Source of the DNA: Ferruginibacter sp.
GTDB taxonomy: Bacteria > Bacteroidota > Bacteroidia > Chitinophagales > Chitinophagaceae
Direction: 5' to 3'
Assembly: GCA_025350645.1 (NCBI GenBank)
Contig: JANXXM010000166.1
Span: 1-42,293, forward strand
Length of the DNA stretch: 42,293 bases
Shown here: positions 8,383-23,839 of the stretch, in pieces
Position numbering within the stretch: position 1 is the stretch's first letter
How the letters are laid out: every line of letters begins with the position of its first letter
The notes under the pieces: generated by a model
Told to the model about the DNA's origin: nothing
Database searches by the model: none
Seen by the model: the letters and a program-made list of their open reading frames with translations, nothing else
Position numbers and translations under genes: made by a program

Positions 8383-9108
8383 ATGAAAAAACTATTTTTA
8401 CTTTTATTGGCATTTGCCGGAACGAGCCTGGCTTTTGCACAAAACAGTCGTAGTTGGATTGTGGGTACTTATGATCAAAAAACCATAATGGCACCGGATG
8501 AGCTAAAGGATGCAGAAGCTGATGTGGAGATAATGCAGGATCCTACTTTATCTAAAAAAATATGGATAAAGCATTTAATAAGCGGCGAAAGGGTTTATGC
8601 ACTCTTACACACCAATGGCGAAGATGCCCTTATTTATAAAGTGCCGGCACAAACAGTAGGAGGGTATTTAATACAATTTGGCTGTGTAGTATTTAATAAA
8701 GATTTAAATAATTGCGTAGTAGCTTTAAATAATAAAAGTGCCTGCTTTGGTATGAGCCAAAAGGACTATGACAATGGTGTAATTATTTCTAAAAAAGGAA
8801 AAGTAAAAGCAGGTAACGTTGATATAGATGGTACTACCGGCACAGTAAAGACAGGCAGTGTAGATGTAAATAGTGACGGTGTAAAAGTAGACACAAAAAA
8901 AGTAATGGCTGGAGTACAGTATGTAGGTGAAAAAATAGGCGGCAAAAAAATAGCAGATGATGATGATGCAGATGTAAACAACAATACAGGCTCAGATACA
9001 GGTGGTGCCGTAAAGGTAAAAAATACTTCATCCAACGTATCGGTAAATAAAAAAGATGTAAAAGTAAACGACAAAAAAATTATTATTAAAAATAAAAAAC
9101 AAAACTAA
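8383..9108 (+). CDS. Secreted protein with low-complexity Lys/Val/Asp repeat tail, unknown function
   Basis: The 241-residue protein starts with a signal peptide (1-20, SLAFAQ). A compact region at about 21-125 contains RSWIVGTYDQK and several Cys and aromatic residues and may be a folded domain; no family was recognised. The rest is a basic and acidic repeat tail of short valine strands separated by G/D/N turns (KAGNVDIDG, KTGSVDVNSDG, VKVDTKK), an aspartate run (ADDDDAD), and then VKVKNTSSNVSVNKKDVKV. The tail resembles the next protein, which starts 2 bases after this stop, so the two are co-translated. The pattern could form a beta-solenoid or a disordered surface tail; that is inference. 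Confidence 0.7.
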   Translation: MKKLFLLLLAFAGTSLAFAQNSRSWIVGTYDQKTIMAPDELKDAEADVEIMQDPTLSKKIWIKHLISGERVYALLHTNGEDALIYKVPAQTVGGYLIQFGCVVFNKDLNNCVVALNNKSACFGMSQKDYDNGVIISKKGKVKAGNVDIDGTTGTVKTGSVDVNSDGVKVDTKKVMAGVQYVGEKIGGKKIADDDDADVNNNTGSDTGGAVKVKNTSSNVSVNKKDVKVNDKKIIIKNKKQN

Positions 9109-9110
9109 CG

Positions 9111-9518
9111 ATGAACATTGTAAAAATGACTTTTATGGCTGCGTGTATTGCCGCCACTATTGTAAGTTGCAATACTAAAAAAGAAGAAACACCTGTACAA
9201 TCCGGCATTGAAGTTAAAACAAATGATGCTGATGTAAAAGTAGGTACCGATGCTGTAAATATTACGACTAATACAGGTGCAGATAGCAACGATACAAAAG
9301 ATGCGGCATCAGATGAAACCAAAAAAGGAACTATCGTTGTAAAAAATACTGACAGTGATAGTGTTTCTATAAATAAAAATGGTATAAATGTAAAGGGAAC
9401 GGGCAGTGAAGTTAAAATTGATAAAGGAAATATTAAAGTAAAATCAAAAGATGGTAAAAGCGACGTAGAAATAAACGGCAATAAGATAAAAGCAGGAGGG
9501 GTAGAAATTAAATATTGA
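9111..9518 (+). CDS. Small lipoprotein with the same Val/Lys repeat pattern as its upstream partner
   Basis: The 135-residue product has a lipoprotein signal with the Cys in TIVSC at residue 20, so it should be lipid-anchored in the envelope. The mature part is almost entirely repeats such as IEVKTNDADVKVG, VVKNTDSDSVSINKNGINVK, VKIDKGNIKVKSKDG and VEINGNKIKAGGVEI. These alternate hydrophobic and polar residues between Gly/Asp/Asn turns, as expected for short beta strands. The element VKNT(D/S)S followed by VS(I/V)NK is shared with the preceding protein. ATG follows the upstream stop by 2 bases, and a strong terminator lies downstream. Function unknown; a shared structural role with its partner is likely. 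Confidence 0.7.
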   Translation: MNIVKMTFMAACIAATIVSCNTKKEETPVQSGIEVKTNDADVKVGTDAVNITTNTGADSNDTKDAASDETKKGTIVVKNTDSDSVSINKNGINVKGTGSEVKIDKGNIKVKSKDGKSDVEINGNKIKAGGVEIKY

Positions 9519-9535
9519 GTACCGTATTCATAATT

Positions 9536-9567
9536 AAAAGCCCCCTAATTTTTTTATGGGGCTTTTT
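9536..9567. terminator. Bidirectional rho-independent terminator between the lipoprotein gene and aroQ
   Basis: The stem AAAAGCCCC / GGGGCTTTT is perfect over nine bases, with T and A runs on both sides, and sits between two convergent genes. It can terminate both. Confidence 0.85.
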
Positions 9568-11685: not shown

Positions 11686-12465
11686 TTATGCTTCTTTTCC
11701 GCCTTTTAATTTGTCCTGTAATTCTTTTAATTCATCCATATTACCATCAGCTGCAAGCTGTGCCTGTTGAGCCCATGTTGCAGGATCAGCCAGTTTAAAA
11801 TTACCTTCTGCCGCATCTAATATTTCCTGTACTTTTTCTGCACTTGATGCAGCAAGGTCGGCAAATGTTACCACACCTGCAGCAGTTAATGCTTCTGCTA
11901 TTTTGGGTCCTATCCCTTCTATCAGTTTAAGATCATCTGCCTTTGCGGCTTTTTTCTTTGCGGCGGGTACAGATTCTACTACTTCTGCAGCAGCAACTTC
12001 TTCCGTTCCTTCTGTTTTCTTTTTGGCACTACCTGCTCTCCTAGTTTTTTTAGCTGGCTCTGCTTCTGTAGCTACTGTTTTACCGTATACATCGTTAAAA
12101 TCTACCAATTCTATCATTGCCATTTCTGCATTATCCCCTATCCTTGCACCAAGTTTTATAATGCGGGTATAACCTCCTGGTCGTCCTGCTACTTTTGGGG
12201 CTACCACAGTAAATAATTCTTTTACAGCAGCTTTATCATTTAGGTAACTAAACACAATACGGTGATTGTGCATGATAGACTCTTTACTTTCTGTAGCTTT
12301 AGTTTTAGTAATAAGCGGCTCAATATATGTACGAAGCGCTTTTGCTTTTGCTACAGTGGTAGTAATTCTTTTATACGTTATTAACTGGCAACCCAAGTTC
12401 ATAAGCAATGCTCTTCTGTGAGAGGCAGTTCTGCTGAGGTTGTTATTTTTGTTTCCGTGACGCAT
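11686..12465 (-). CDS. rplQ: 50S ribosomal protein L17 with C-terminal helix-hairpin-helix extension
   Basis: Residues 1 to about 125 are a normal L17 ([20 protein letters not shown], then [21 protein letters not shown]), a protein near the peptide exit tunnel. The usual protein is about 115-130 residues; this one has 259. Residues 130-175 form a Lys/Ala/Glu-rich linker. Residues 177-225 carry a helix-hairpin-helix element ([20 protein letters not shown]), and 226-259 end with a motif often seen after such domains ([11 protein letters not shown], then ELQDKLKGG). The tail could bind nucleic acid or another protein. Similar tails occur on other Bacteroidota ribosomal proteins, from memory. Last gene of the infA-to-rplQ operon. 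Confidence 0.95.
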
Positions 12466-16137: not shown

Positions 16138-16851
16138 CTATTCTAATATTTTCACCTCTGTTCTTCTATTTTCTGCTCTTCCTTCCGGCGTAGCGTTGGT
16201 TGCTATTTTTTGGGTCATTCCATAGCCTTTTGCAGTAAGCCTGCCGGCGTATATACCTTTAGATATAATGTAAGCCATTACACTTTTAGCCCTTTCCATA
16301 GATAATAGCAAATTTGCAACAGGTTTGCCTACATTATCTGTATGGCCACCAATTTCTATGCGCTCATCATCTTTTCTGTTAAGATAAGTTACCAGTTCGT
16401 CCAGTACAGGAAATGATTCCGAGGTAAGGTTTGCCTTACCAGTTTCAAAATTTACATTATCCAGTATAAATGTTTTTGCAGGCTGAAATTGTATATCTAC
16501 CACAAAAGGTTTTTTATACGAAGCATTTGCCTGCAATGAAGGAATATCCAATATATTATAACTCGTAGAATCTTTAAAACCAAGGATAAAAATTTCGTAA
16601 CGATCCCCCGCAGGTAATCTTAAGGAAAATGATCCATTATCCTGGCTCATACCTTGGTACTCTTTTTGCGTAAGCTGGCTTCGGAAAATAATGATTTCGT
16701 GCGGTAACATATTTTTTTTAAAGTCTGCTATGCTTACATCTACAGGTGCGTCTTTTGCCTGAGATGAATTTTGCTGTAAAGTATTGGTTTGAGAAAATAA
16801 GAAACCATGTAATACAAAATTGAGGAAGAATAAAATAAAGATTCTTTTCAT
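16138..16851 (-). CDS. OmpA-family peptidoglycan-binding outer-membrane/periplasmic protein
   Basis: The 237-residue protein has a signal peptide (1-20, FLFSQ). A small beta-rich region at about 37-120 contains DNGSFSLRLPAGDRYEI, similar to carboxypeptidase-regulatory folds. The OmpA C-terminal domain is at about 127-237. In that domain, ILDNVNFETGKANLTSES opens the fold, and HTDNVGKP, LLLSMERAKSVMAYI and NRRTEVKILE include the Asp172 and Arg187 positions that hold the diaminopimelate of peptidoglycan. There is no eight-stranded barrel, so it probably tethers to the cell wall as a soluble or partner-bound protein. A TATCTTTA box at 16878-16885 may be its promoter. Confidence 0.85.
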   Translation of the reverse strand: MKRIFILFFLNFVLHGFLFSQTNTLQQNSSQAKDAPVDVSIADFKKNMLPHEIIIFRSQLTQKEYQGMSQDNGSFSLRLPAGDRYEIFILGFKDSTSYNILDIPSLQANASYKKPFVVDIQFQPAKTFILDNVNFETGKANLTSESFPVLDELVTYLNRKDDERIEIGGHTDNVGKPVANLLLSMERAKSVMAYIISKGIYAGRLTAKGYGMTQKIATNATPEGRAENRRTEVKILE

Positions 16852-19753: not shown

Positions 19754-22700
19754 CTACCATTTTAAAAATTTATAACTGATATGTTGCATTTTTGTTTGAA
19801 GCTGCAAAATATACAGCCCCTGCTTCAAATTTTTTATATCAATTAAATTAGGCGTTACTTCATTTTTTTTGTGATGAACTTTACGGTACACTGTACTACC
19901 CATTTCGTTTGTAATGGTAACCAAATACTCGTTTTCTAATGCTGGAGGTAATTTTACTGTAACTACATCTCCGGCAGGGTTTGGGTATAACAAAAGTTCA
20001 TTATTTTGTTTTGTTTTTTCTGCAATATTTTCATCTGATGCGTCCGCTGCTGTTTTGTTTGTTCTTGCCAATAACGGTGGAGGGTTAATACTTGCTTCTT
20101 TAATAATAAAACCTGCAATGTAATTCCAGGTTCCTATCCGGCTAATAGTTACCAAAATTTTTCCGGCACTGTTTGGGGAGATATTTATAAACTTTGCAAA
20201 ATCATTAATATTATTGTCAGTAGAAATTGTATCTAGTAAAGTGCCTATCTGATAAATACTGCTATTGCCCGTATTGCCCCGGCTTGCATAAAATTCCAGA
20301 TTGTATTTGATCGCAGGATCCAGTCCGTTTAATGTTAGTGTTCTGTAACTTGTGTTGGCAGAATTATACCTAAGCACCTGTGTTGGACAAACAGTAGCAG
20401 TAGTTGCATAAGCAGATCCATTGTCTGATATTAATCCGGATGCCGTTATTACTGCATTTATAGAACTTGCACTTCCATCATCATAGTAAAAAATGCTGCT
20501 AGATAATCCAGCACTCATATTCCAATTATTCCATTGAGCAATATTGTAGGGGTTGCTTCCTCCATAAATATTTACATTTATTTTTTTTGCAACTTGTACT
20601 TGTGCATTTACTGTCACCAGCACCGTATCTTTTGCAATGCCACCCACATTATCTGTTACTGTTAGTTGATAAGCATAAATGCCTTGCAGCAACCCGCTTG
20701 CCGTGGCTGTTGCTGTAGTTGCATTTGCAAGTGTGCCAGTAGCAGGGCCAGAAATTTTTACCCAATTATAAGATGCAATTGTGCCGTCAGCATCTGTACC
20801 ACTGCCAGTTAATGTTGTGGTATTTACTGGGAGTGTAATGCTAATATCTGAACCAGCATTGGCTATGGGTAAAATATTGGCAGGAGGTATTCCGATATGT
20901 ACCGTTACCAGCACCGTATCTTTTGCAATGCCACCCACATTATCCGTTAATGTTAGTTGATAAGCATAAATTCCTTGCAGCAACCCACTTGCTGTGGCTG
21001 TTGCTGCAGTTGCATTTGCAAGTGTGCCAGTAGCAGGGCCAGAAATTTTTACCCAATTATAAGATGCAATTGTGCCGTCAGCATCTGTTCCACTGCCTGT
21101 TAATGCTGCGGTATTTATTGGAAGCGTAATGTTAATATCTGCACCGGCATTGGCAATGGGTAAAATATTGGCAGGAATATTATTGCGTATGCAAATAGTA
21201 TCCCCTATTTTTTCGGCTGCCATTCTTGTAAATAAAATATGATGCCCGTAATTATTTAAATGTACACCATCACCTGCACTATAAAAAGAATTAATTGTAC
21301 CATCGGCATTTGCAATACCCGTCCAAAAATCCACAGCCTTATTTCCATAAGTAGTATTTATCCAATCCCTCAAATCCATTTGCAATATATTTTCTGAAGG
21401 GCTCAATCCATCTCTTGGCTGTGTTGTGCTTACCCACACAGGAATGTTTTGGTTATTTGCAAGCGTTGTTATGTTTATAAAATTCTGATGAATGTTATTA
21501 GTTGGAATTCCTCTTGCCACATCATTAGAAGGTAGGTTTAAAATAATAGCATCGGGGTTTAAAGAAAGCGCTTTTGTAATATTGCGCATAGTATCTACTG
21601 AAAAGGGTGCTGGTATAATAGTTCCCGTTGCAGATACATCATAGGATGTGAGCCCAGGAGTGGCAATATTGATAACCTGTATTTGTGGATTTTGTAGGAG
21701 CAGGTATGATGTAAATTTTTTTGCCCAGGAACTATCAATAGGGTTTGCACCAGTACCATACGCTGTGGAAGATCCTACAATAACTATCTTATAAGCACGG
21801 TTGCATAATGGTGTAACCTGCGGTGGCCATGCAAAACTAAAGTATGGCAAAACAACAATGTTTACAGAATCTTTTGCTGTAAGCCCCGCTGTATCGGTTA
21901 CTGCGAGCTCAAAAATATAATTACCTGCAACAAGATTTTTAATTTTTGTTGCACAAAGGGTGTCATTTATAATTTGAAAAGATGCAGGACCTGCTATTTT
22001 TTTCCATTTGTATTTTAATATTCCATTCTCAGGATCTGATGATGCGCAGCCTCTAATCGTTAATGAATCTGTAGGTAATTGCAAACTTGTATCTGCGCCT
22101 GCACGTGCAATGGGAGGAAGATTTACAGTAGCAATGGTAGTGTCTGAACCATAAAAAATATCCAGCACGTTGATGCACGAAAAGTCGCTGCCAGCTTTTG
22201 TTCTTATATCAAAATCCATTACTGTTTTTCCTGTAACTACAAAAACTGCCGCATTATTAAAATTGCTGTTACTTGTAGCGTTGTAGGTTTTCCATATATT
22301 ATCATCTGTTCTTTTTATTTCTGCACTCCTTGCGGCAGTAGTATTGGTGCGGCTTCCCCAAAATTTTATGGTATAAATTTTATTGGCCTGCAATCCTTTT
22401 ATCCGCCATTTTCCATTGGTTGCACTACTGTGTATAAGCGCATGATCGGTAGTGGCACTTGCAGGATAATCGCCCACAACACCGGTTGTATTACCATTAC
22501 CTGTACCTGGCGAACTGGCACTATTGTATGTACCATCCACCCTGTTAATTACTTCAACGGCAATACCTGATAACTGATTCGCTATGGTAAGTGCGTTGCT
22601 TACATTTACACCTGCTCTGGCATCAGTCATATTATTCCATGTGTTGCCATTTATATTGGGAGATGAAGTGATAGTGCCACCAAAATTGGCATTGCCGCCA

Positions 22701-23839
22701 ACATCGATTAGTATGCGCTGCTGTGCACCTGCTGGTAAAGAATGGTACACATTTACCGTTAATGAATCTTTGCTTACGGCTCCCATATTATCTGTTACAG
22801 TAAGTTCAAATTGATAAACACCTTCTGTAAGATTAGAAATAACGGGGCTTACCGCTACAGAGTCTGAAAATGTATAAGAAGAAGGTCCATTTACTTTGCG
22901 CCATTTGTAGGCTACGATAATGCCGTCTTGGTCCACAGAGGAGCTTCCATCCATTATTGCATTTGCGGGAAGCACCACACCTATATCCTGCCCCGCAGCG
23001 GCTAATGGAGGCAGGTTTACATTTACTGTTCTTTGCCTGTAGCCAAGCATCCATTCATAAATATTAATACCCTCTGGTTTATAACCTGGCAATGTTGCCT
23101 GGCTCCAGCATTCATGGGCTATAATAGCATCAGAACTTATTAAGGGGAATTCAGTAAGTTTTGTTTGTGGATTTGGCGTAGGAGTATAATTGTTGATGTA
23201 CGTTTTCCAGTTTCTGGAATATGCCACTGGTACTGTTCCATCATTAGTATTATGAAATGCCCATACGGGCAAGTTAGCTGCTGCTATTCTGTTTGCTAAA
23301 GTTTGTGTAGGAGCAAATGCACCACAAAAAGGTATCATTGCTGCAATTTTATTACTGTTGGTAATATTTAAACTTGCAAACTCCCACGCCGCACCACCAC
23401 CGGCACTTATGCCCATCAAATACACCCTGGTTGGGTCTACCCTGTAGTTACTCATAGCGTATGTTAGTATTGCACCAACATTACCACCAGAAGGCCAGCC
23501 GGTAAACTGAGGAGAAATAACTATAAAAGAAAAACTACTGTCGCCAACAGAAAAACTTGCAGGAAAACCGCCTTCACTTATGATTTTAGGTACTCCCCAT
23601 TCAAGCACTTTTGGTAAATCTGCTATATTACCTTCGCCCACTTGCCCTGCACCATGCACCCAAATAATGAGTGGATAATTTTTTATATCTGCGTTATAAT
23701 TTGGTGGCAGGCACTGGTAAAATCCTTTACAGCTAGCACCGGTTATAGATTGCGATAAATACACCTGGGTTTGTGTTTGAGAAAATAGCATTGTTCCCAC
23801 AAAAAGAAGCGCAAAGAATAATGTAAATTTCTTTTGCAT
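19754..23839 (-). CDS. Large T9SS-secreted protein with an alpha/beta hydrolase and an SGNH hydrolase domain
   Basis: The 1361-residue mosaic has these parts in order: signal peptide (1-20); an esterase of the PHB-depolymerase/feruloyl-esterase type (about 25-270) with GISAGG (Ser145), Asp200 in NTNDGTVP and His242; a K319/PKD-like beta-sandwich (275-365); and a malectin/CBM-like domain (372-565). Then follow a second PKD-like domain (572-665), an SGNH hydrolase (682-880) with Ser690 in VGSST, SND at 771-773 and Asp857/His860 in DGVHLNNYGH, two nearly identical PKD-like repeats (890-982 and 987-1078) and another carbohydrate-binding-like domain (1085-1250). A type IX secretion sorting domain (1282-1361, LLLYPNPAGD, GLYILQL) ends the protein. 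It probably removes ester groups from a polysaccharide outside the cell. No partner glycosidase gene is nearby. Confidence 0.88.
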   Translation of the reverse strand: MQKKFTLFFALLFVGTMLFSQTQTQVYLSQSITGASCKGFYQCLPPNYNADIKNYPLIIWVHGAGQVGEGNIADLPKVLEWGVPKIISEGGFPASFSVGDSSFSFIVISPQFTGWPSGGNVGAILTYAMSNYRVDPTRVYLMGISAGGGAAWEFASLNITNSNKIAAMIPFCGAFAPTQTLANRIAAANLPVWAFHNTNDGTVPVAYSRNWKTYINNYTPTPNPQTKLTEFPLISSDAIIAHECWSQATLPGYKPEGINIYEWMLGYRQRTVNVNLPPLAAAGQDIGVVLPANAIMDGSSSVDQDGIIVAYKWRKVNGPSSYTFSDSVAVSPVISNLTEGVYQFELTVTDNMGAVSKDSLTVNVYHSLPAGAQQRILIDVGGNANFGGTITSSPNINGNTWNNMTDARAGVNVSNALTIANQLSGIAVEVINRVDGTYNSASSPGTGNGNTTGVVGDYPASATTDHALIHSSATNGKWRIKGLQANKIYTIKFWGSRTNTTAARSAEIKRTDDNIWKTYNATSNSNFNNAAVFVVTGKTVMDFDIRTKAGSDFSCINVLDIFYGSDTTIATVNLPPIARAGADTSLQLPTDSLTIRGCASSDPENGILKYKWKKIAGPASFQIINDTLCATKIKNLVAGNYIFELAVTDTAGLTAKDSVNIVVLPYFSFAWPPQVTPLCNRAYKIVIVGSSTAYGTGANPIDSSWAKKFTSYLLLQNPQIQVINIATPGLTSYDVSATGTIIPAPFSVDTMRNITKALSLNPDAIILNLPSNDVARGIPTNNIHQNFINITTLANNQNIPVWVSTTQPRDGLSPSENILQMDLRDWINTTYGNKAVDFWTGIANADGTINSFYSAGDGVHLNNYGHHILFTRMAAEKIGDTICIRNNIPANILPIANAGADINITLPINTAALTGSGTDADGTIASYNWVKISGPATGTLANATAATATASGLLQGIYAYQLTLTDNVGGIAKDTVLVTVHIGIPPANILPIANAGSDISITLPVNTTTLTGSGTDADGTIASYNWVKISGPATGTLANATTATATASGLLQGIYAYQLTVTDNVGGIAKDTVLVTVNAQVQVAKKINVNIYGGSNPYNIAQWNNWNMSAGLSSSIFYYDDGSASSINAVITASGLISDNGSAYATTATVCPTQVLRYNSANTSYRTLTLNGLDPAIKYNLEFYASRGNTGNSSIYQIGTLLDTISTDNNINDFAKFINISPNSAGKILVTISRIGTWNYIAGFIIKEASINPPPLLARTNKTAADASDENIAEKTKQNNELLLYPNPAGDVVTVKLPPALENEYLVTITNEMGSTVYRKVHHKKNEVTPNLIDIKNLKQGLYILQLQTKMQHISYKFLKW
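20614..21175. repeat. 291-base tandem duplication inside the T9SS esterase gene
   Basis: Two copies (about 20614-20885 and 20907-21175) with a period of 291 bases (97 codons) encode consecutive PKD-like domains. Long stretches are identical, for example GCCAGTAGCAGGGCCAGAAA. The few differences suggest a recent duplication or ongoing gene conversion. Confidence 0.85.

Follow-up and report, generated by a model that had tools for sequence, protein, structure and literature searches.

Two adjacent genes, here called ORF1 and ORF2, in a 42,293-nucleotide stretch of Ferruginibacter sp. DNA (referred to below as the window) may constitute a two-gene envelope cassette, in which a lipoprotein anchor is paired with a soluble barrel protein through a putative contact. 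This is the best explanation that we can offer, and we hold it tentatively. ORF1 would be exported to the periplasm or beyond, and its N-terminal ~100 residues, a relocated member of a secreted family, may fold into a calycin-like barrel for a small ligand or peptide; behind the barrel would come a V/K/N-rich flexible linker and then a basic tail. As the gap of 2 nt suggests, ORF2 would be made directly after ORF1 by coupled translation. It would then be acylated at Cys20 and lodged in the outer membrane, with ~50 flexible acidic residues leading to an antiparallel sheet of ~60 residues in which V and I alternate along each strand. One face of this sheet is probably greasy and would have to be buried, so that the sheet probably self-associates or binds a partner, and the neighbouring ORF1 barrel protein, which could dock onto it, is the natural candidate.

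Layout of the gene pair

Both genes lie on the same strand with a stop-to-start gap of 2 nt (Table 1), as the original prediction had stated. Its claims that ORF1 is exported and carries an extra N-terminal domain, and that ORF2 bears a lipid anchor, agree with a signal peptide and a lipobox (TIVS-C20), both recognised by eye, and with a domain at ORF1 residues 22-122. The remark that no known family could be recognised also held, in that neither protein reaches the cut-off in Pfam or NCBIfam. Against the MKKt...anaQ start of the profile of the ORF1 family, the longer ORF1 frame gave a weak match of 1.5 bits. The codon usage of the two genes resembles that of the 14 other window genes compared and their GC content is ordinary for the window; a mobile origin was considered and set aside on these grounds, together with the lack of a plasmid match and of a viral-contig match for ORF1.

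The hairpin with a U-run found 3' of ORF2 was equalled by 4 of 200 shuffled sequences. It is probably a terminator common to ORF2 and the convergent aroQ, and a scan for consensus terminators, covering loops of 3-8 only, detected none. The Bacteroidota promoter pattern had no match upstream near the pair (3 matches in the window against 5 expected). The short gap leaves no space for a terminator between the genes, and the same-strand spacing of 2 nt together with the single hairpin at the end points to one transcript.

Table 1. Features of the ORF1-ORF2 region, with positions in the window
Feature	Position	Strand	Basis or remark
ORF1 (P0001), 241 aa secreted protein	8383..9108	+	codon usage ordinary
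ORF1 signal peptide, about residues 1-20, MKKLFLLLLAFAGTSLAFA/Q	8383..8442	+	by eye
ORF1 residues 22-122, divergent uvrA-linked Chitinophagaceae domain, predicted small barrel	8446..8748	+	profile, model
ORF1 residues 123-172, V/K/D/G-rich linker, predicted disordered	8749..8898	+	pLDDT about 23-40
ORF1 residues 173-188, candidate barrel-closing strand (KVMAGVQYVGEKIGGK)	8899..8946	+	strand 178-186, pLDDT 61-68
ORF1 residues 189-241, acidic then lysine-rich tail, predicted disordered	8947..9105	+	pLDDT 25-43 from residue 191
Element VKNTSSNVSVNK, ORF1 residues 212-223	9016..9051	+	read in sequence
ORF2 (P0002), 135 aa lipoprotein	9111..9518	+	lipobox Cys20 by eye
ORF2 residues 20-72, acidic flexible tether	9168..9326	+	pLDDT mostly <50, three weak strands; net charge -4
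ORF2 residues 73-135, predicted beta-meander, 18-19-residue repeat	9327..9515	+	model, repeat profile
Element VKNTDSDSVSINK, ORF2 residues 77-89	9339..9377	+	read in sequence
Hairpin with U-run 3' of ORF2	9536..9566	none	-14.6 kcal/mol, z -2.8

Elsewhere in the window, positions 11686-12465 hold a gene for ribosomal protein L17 with a C-terminal helix-hairpin-helix domain (PF14520), while the complete L17 genes of two genus relatives (L101 and L110) encode only 175-177 aa. A 658-aa protein encoded at 78-2054 has no Pfam match at E 1e-4, and a 1361-aa protein encoded at 19754-23839 combines PKD domains, a GDSL lipase domain and a type IX secretion tail.

The ORF1 domain and its uvrA-linked family

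Searching 294 Chitinophagaceae genomes with the whole of ORF1 gave three matches besides ORF1 itself, of which one (L002) was believed; the other two (L003 and L004) lie within long frames whose translations resemble RecQ helicases and were taken as chance. When the domain alone was searched among 59 relatives, ten matches were obtained beyond its own genome, all with E 0.027-0.098, and they were not accepted. Profile A1, built from two domains (that of ORF1 and that of one relative), was matched in 50 of 394 Chitinophagaceae genomes, the own genome included and weak matches counted, and these belong to 20 of 101 genera. Leaving aside the two rows from which the profile was built, the best E values ranged from 2.5e-20 to about 9e-5. 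A profile of 25 relatives without ORF1 scores ORF1 at 33.2 bits over residues 26-115 (E 2.9e-9, set size 1167), a test that is not wholly independent because the relatives came from a profile containing ORF1 (A1). The best of 1000 shuffles reached 9.2 bits and the best other frame of the window 9.1 bits, and with the four nearest relatives also left out of the profile ORF1 still scored 23.6 bits (E 2.2e-6). Across 17 aligned rows including ORF1, nine positions are invariant (G28, D53, W61, A73, Y85, P88, Q90, G100 and G123), and the identity of ORF1 to the 16 other members is 23-32%. These alignments and profiles place residues 22-122 of ORF1, as a divergent member, in a family of secreted Chitinophagaceae domains.

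A search of 198 genomes of the class gave two matched genomes, both Chitinophagaceae; profile A2 gave six further matches among 247 class genomes (E 3e-5 to 1e-4). A sequence search of solved structures returned two matches, none below E 0.35. None of the 17 members scanned has a Pfam match at the cut-off. At E <= 0.1, eight of the 17 match BetaGal_gal-bd (PF21467), the best with 22.6 bits against a cut-off of 27.3, and ORF1 is absent among the listed PF21467 matches. Sub-cut-off galactose-binding matches of this kind with E 1e-4 to 8e-3 were seen in L028, L036, L040, L049, L051, L052 and L035; they are a possible hint at carbohydrate binding or at a common strand pattern. Pfam rows such as PapC_C, BetaGal_gal-bd and DUF3188 were rejected, being below their cut-offs where bits were given. 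Neither ORF1 nor ORF2 has PF13349 (DUF4097 toastrack adhesins) among its listed matches at E <= 10. The protein L008 scores 22.7 bits with that model, just below its cut-off of 22.9, and its match to the JUQZ family (21.2 bits, cut-off 40) was dismissed. In one genus (L061:5748-6911, also L026 and L027), the family protein is lengthened to 302-387 aa by stretches of DTVPKKDTT-like repeats in front of the domain.

The surroundings of 21 family loci were read, 20 of them fetched and one (L060) on the same contig as L002; in a contig scan in which 100 stretches matched a pattern, L060 was the one locus confirmed. In all but one of the 21 loci (the 20 are L060-L078 and L080) the family gene has a divergently oriented uvrA as its neighbour; L079, a doubtful family match (E 8e-5) not beside uvrA, was retained in the neighbour count. 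An OmpA-type lipoprotein gene lies near the family gene in seven of the 21 loci (of YiaD type in L061) and a probable outer-membrane barrel gene, whose model match is below the cut-off, in six, an envelope context that favours the cassette. The OmpA gene of the window (16138-16851) was rejected as the family's companion lipoprotein, as only the OmpA domain matches. Its position by uvrA, its spread among the genomes and its lack of Pfam matches at the cut-off may make this secreted family worth keeping. In the genome of the window no family gene stands alongside uvrA (L084), and ORF1 sits by aroQ instead; without the divergent uvrA neighbour, ORF1 is classed as a relative on sequence grounds and not as an ortholog. 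It is the only family match in 93 genomes of the genus, its own included. A second UvrA-like gene (L082, G000:C22:995-3781), 48% identical to the query UvrA and containing a single TGA within the matched frame, lies on a contig of 3.8 kb.

The structural model of ORF1 was computed from two rows (ORF1 and one relative) and reached a mean pLDDT of 52.3 and a pTM of 0.50; four other models were worse (mean pLDDT 35.6 to 41.3). Confidence is concentrated in residues 21-120 (pLDDT 67-81 in blocks of ten) and, to a lesser degree, in the late strand, with the linker and tail at about 23-43. Foldseek gave no match at E <= 0.001 for the models of either protein. Among the re-scored candidates for ORF1, the VIA Z scores were 9.1 for 3rwx, 8.7 for BT_2261, 8.2 for a designed barrel and 7.8 for Cap15, with many FABPs at about 6; these barrel scores barely exceed the level that the comparison tool rates as common, and 2qmi, which is a homologue of a penicillin-binding protein, ties with the barrels (Z 8.7). 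Most of the barrel alignments extend to residue 184-187 and include the late strand. The model suggests that the ~100-residue N-terminal domain is probably a small calycin-like beta-barrel. The profile of the family's C-strand (WxYxGTK) scored 2.9 bits on ORF1 residues 168-185, a value equalled by 10 of 1000 and 20 of 1000 shuffles. If the family's last strand has been kept there, the V/K/D run of ORF1 would consist of a linker within the barrel and a tail behind it, the latter with a net charge of -5 and then +8.

The ORF2 lipoprotein

ORF2 was matched in seven of 288 Chitinophagaceae genomes, its own included, and two of the six other matches (L010 and L011) were left out of the ORF2 alignment. 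In the genus, four of 93 genomes were matched, namely its own and three weak ones (L086-L088, E 2e-4 to 0.005) that were not accepted as relatives. A reciprocal profile made from two relatives without ORF2 had matches in five of 294 genomes, namely three from a single other genus, G023 and the genome of ORF2, ORF2 being recovered with E 2.7e-6. The match in G023 (L117, E 1.4e-6, slightly better than ORF2) was judged unrelated by reading. With these caveats, ORF2 is, as far as its sequence tells, a repeat lipoprotein akin to L114 and L115, in which strand-turn-strand units of 18-19 residues follow the lipobox.

Modelled from one sequence, ORF2 has a mean pLDDT of 62.4 and a pTM of 0.46, with values of 78-88 in the blocks covering residues 81-135 and 66 in residues 71-80. 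Eight short strands with tight turns between them are predicted from residue 75 onwards. In seven of the eight, aliphatics (Ala and Tyr counted) strictly alternate, so that one face of the sheet is probably greasy, provided that the strands agree in the side they turn. The closest folds were the CPAP TCP domain (Z 8.9, rmsd 3.0 over 62 residues), the phi92 spike 3pqh (Z 8.0) and OspA (Z 6.5).

To our knowledge, no lipoprotein surface-export signal has been defined for this family. In Capnocytophaga, the signal is C-X-K-(D/E)2-X directly after the acylated Cys, and its position matters (PMC5080379). ORF2 reads C-N-T-K-K-E-E from Cys20, which places K and EE one to two positions late with respect to the Capnocytophaga signal.

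Readings of the pair and comparison with known systems

Nearly as likely as the cassette is that the two genes are chance neighbours, a relocated secreted barrel and a small repeat lipoprotein lying side by side after carA-aroQ, whose likeness reflects the bias towards K, V and N that flexible exported proteins have when the genome is AT-rich. The original prediction had looked to co-occurrence of the pair in other genomes, and none was seen in the sampled 288-394 genomes of the Chitinophagaceae, 93 of the genus, and 198 and 247 of the class (all sets are samples, and the Chitinophagaceae sets of several searches overlap). There is thus no conservation to back a joint function. In the genus, 24 further aroQ loci were compared; carA lies nearby in 21, and none contains ORF1 or ORF2. 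The stretch 3' of aroQ is readable in 22 of the 24 (the other two have at most 272 bases there). Among these loci (L090-L112), the same one gene follows aroQ in 13 of the 22 and is missing from nine of them and from the window. From this comparison the ORF1-ORF2 pair emerges as a lineage-specific arrangement at this place, and this common gene weakens the idea that the place after aroQ is a variable spot.

The chance-level similarity of the two tails also speaks for chance neighbours. The Smith-Waterman score of the full tails (72) was matched by 211 of 2000 residue shuffles and by 691 of 2000 shuffles in which the hydrophobic positions were kept, BLASTP gave E = 0.048, and the similarity of the tail DNA was equalled by 202 of 1000 and 228 of 1000 codon shuffles. 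A repeat profile of eight 19-residue units, taken from two ORF2 relatives, scored 21.7 bits on ORF2 (equalled by 0 of 1000 shuffles) and -6.6 bits on the ORF1 tail, a value equalled by 665 of 1000 shuffles, so that the repeat unit does not fit that tail; the test is partly circular because the repeat-lipoprotein relatives were found using ORF2. The idea of a strand repeat common to both proteins was therefore rejected, four tests (tail alignment, BLASTP, shuffles and repeat profile) failing to uphold it, and most of the likeness is a common preference for the same amino acids. Two observations weigh against chance neighbours, namely the spacing and single end hairpin that point to one transcript, and the short VKNT element. 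The latter is indeed present in both proteins as originally described, with 9 of 12 identities and one gap, but it is only slightly above shuffles (as good in 50 of 3000 and 119 of 3000), and borderline because the length compared was picked after the element had been seen.

A trimer of ORF2 residues 73-135, forming a small beta-prism like a spike on the lipid anchor and either capped by ORF1 or carrying it as cargo, is unlikely. Of the five rows with Z >= 8, the 3pqh match has the smallest rmsd (1.9 over 56 residues), further spike and VgrG chains are listed, and the alternating aliphatics would suit such a prism; however, the open single sheet of CPAP TCP has a slightly higher Z, rows within 1 Z being tied, and the model is of a lone chain from one sequence.

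Still less probable are the beta-solenoids of the original prediction, in which both tails would form one strand repeat and stack on each other at the cell surface. In their favour are the VKNT...NK element and a V-x-V alternation that exceeds shuffles in mature ORF2 (13 of 5000), is less marked in its residues 73-135 alone (219 of 5000) and shows no excess in ORF1 residues 123-241 (1247 of 5000). Against them, the repeat profile misses the ORF1 tail, and ORF2 residues 73-135 are modelled as a meander. Disorder of both tails, which the original prediction had itself named as contrary evidence, is predicted for the ORF1 tail (pLDDT 25-43), while the ORF2 tail is modelled as ordered strands. Solenoid chains are not prominent in the fold lists, which proves nothing about the fold. 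We give least credence to a beta-prism mini-spike of ORF2 on the outer membrane in which the linker and tail of ORF1 would add V/K/N strands to the open edge and the barrel would be displayed on a self-assembling stalk; if true, this would be a display device arisen from domain relocation in one lineage.

Returning to the cassette, we regard the ORF1-ORF2 pair itself as fairly ordinary. In the window, ORF1 represents its family outside the usual place, with long flexible tails and beside a lipoprotein anchor, and binding between ORF1 and ORF2, if it occurs, would make the pair a small example of an envelope complex assembled anew.

Among known systems, the membrane-piercing spike of phi92 is a trimer whose fragment 3pqh shares the meander geometry of the ORF2 model; unlike in phi92, ORF1 is without a viral-contig match and ORF2 is modelled as a single chain. 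The TCP (G-box) domain of CPAP is likewise an open antiparallel meander. Both faces of its sheet are solvent-exposed (PMC3776556), whereas ORF2 probably has one greasy face. The proteins L114, L115 and L116 of a second genus share with ORF2 the lipobox, the tether and 18-19-residue units (xVxIxxxGIxVKxxDG), but their units are more regular and no ORF1-family gene was found within the 3.2-3.4 kb read around them (best E 0.079). The Bacteroides proteins 3rwx (BF2706) and 3h3i (BT_2261, 'putative lipid binding protein') resemble the predicted barrel of ORF1; their identity to ORF1 is 7% and they are not among the two sequence matches to solved structures. Finally, ORF1 shares with the uvrA-linked family the signal peptide, the G-Y...D...W...YKxPAQ...G core and possibly the last strand, and differs from it in lying away from uvrA and in having a V/K/D/N-rich linker, an extra tail of 50 residues and a lipoprotein partner gene.
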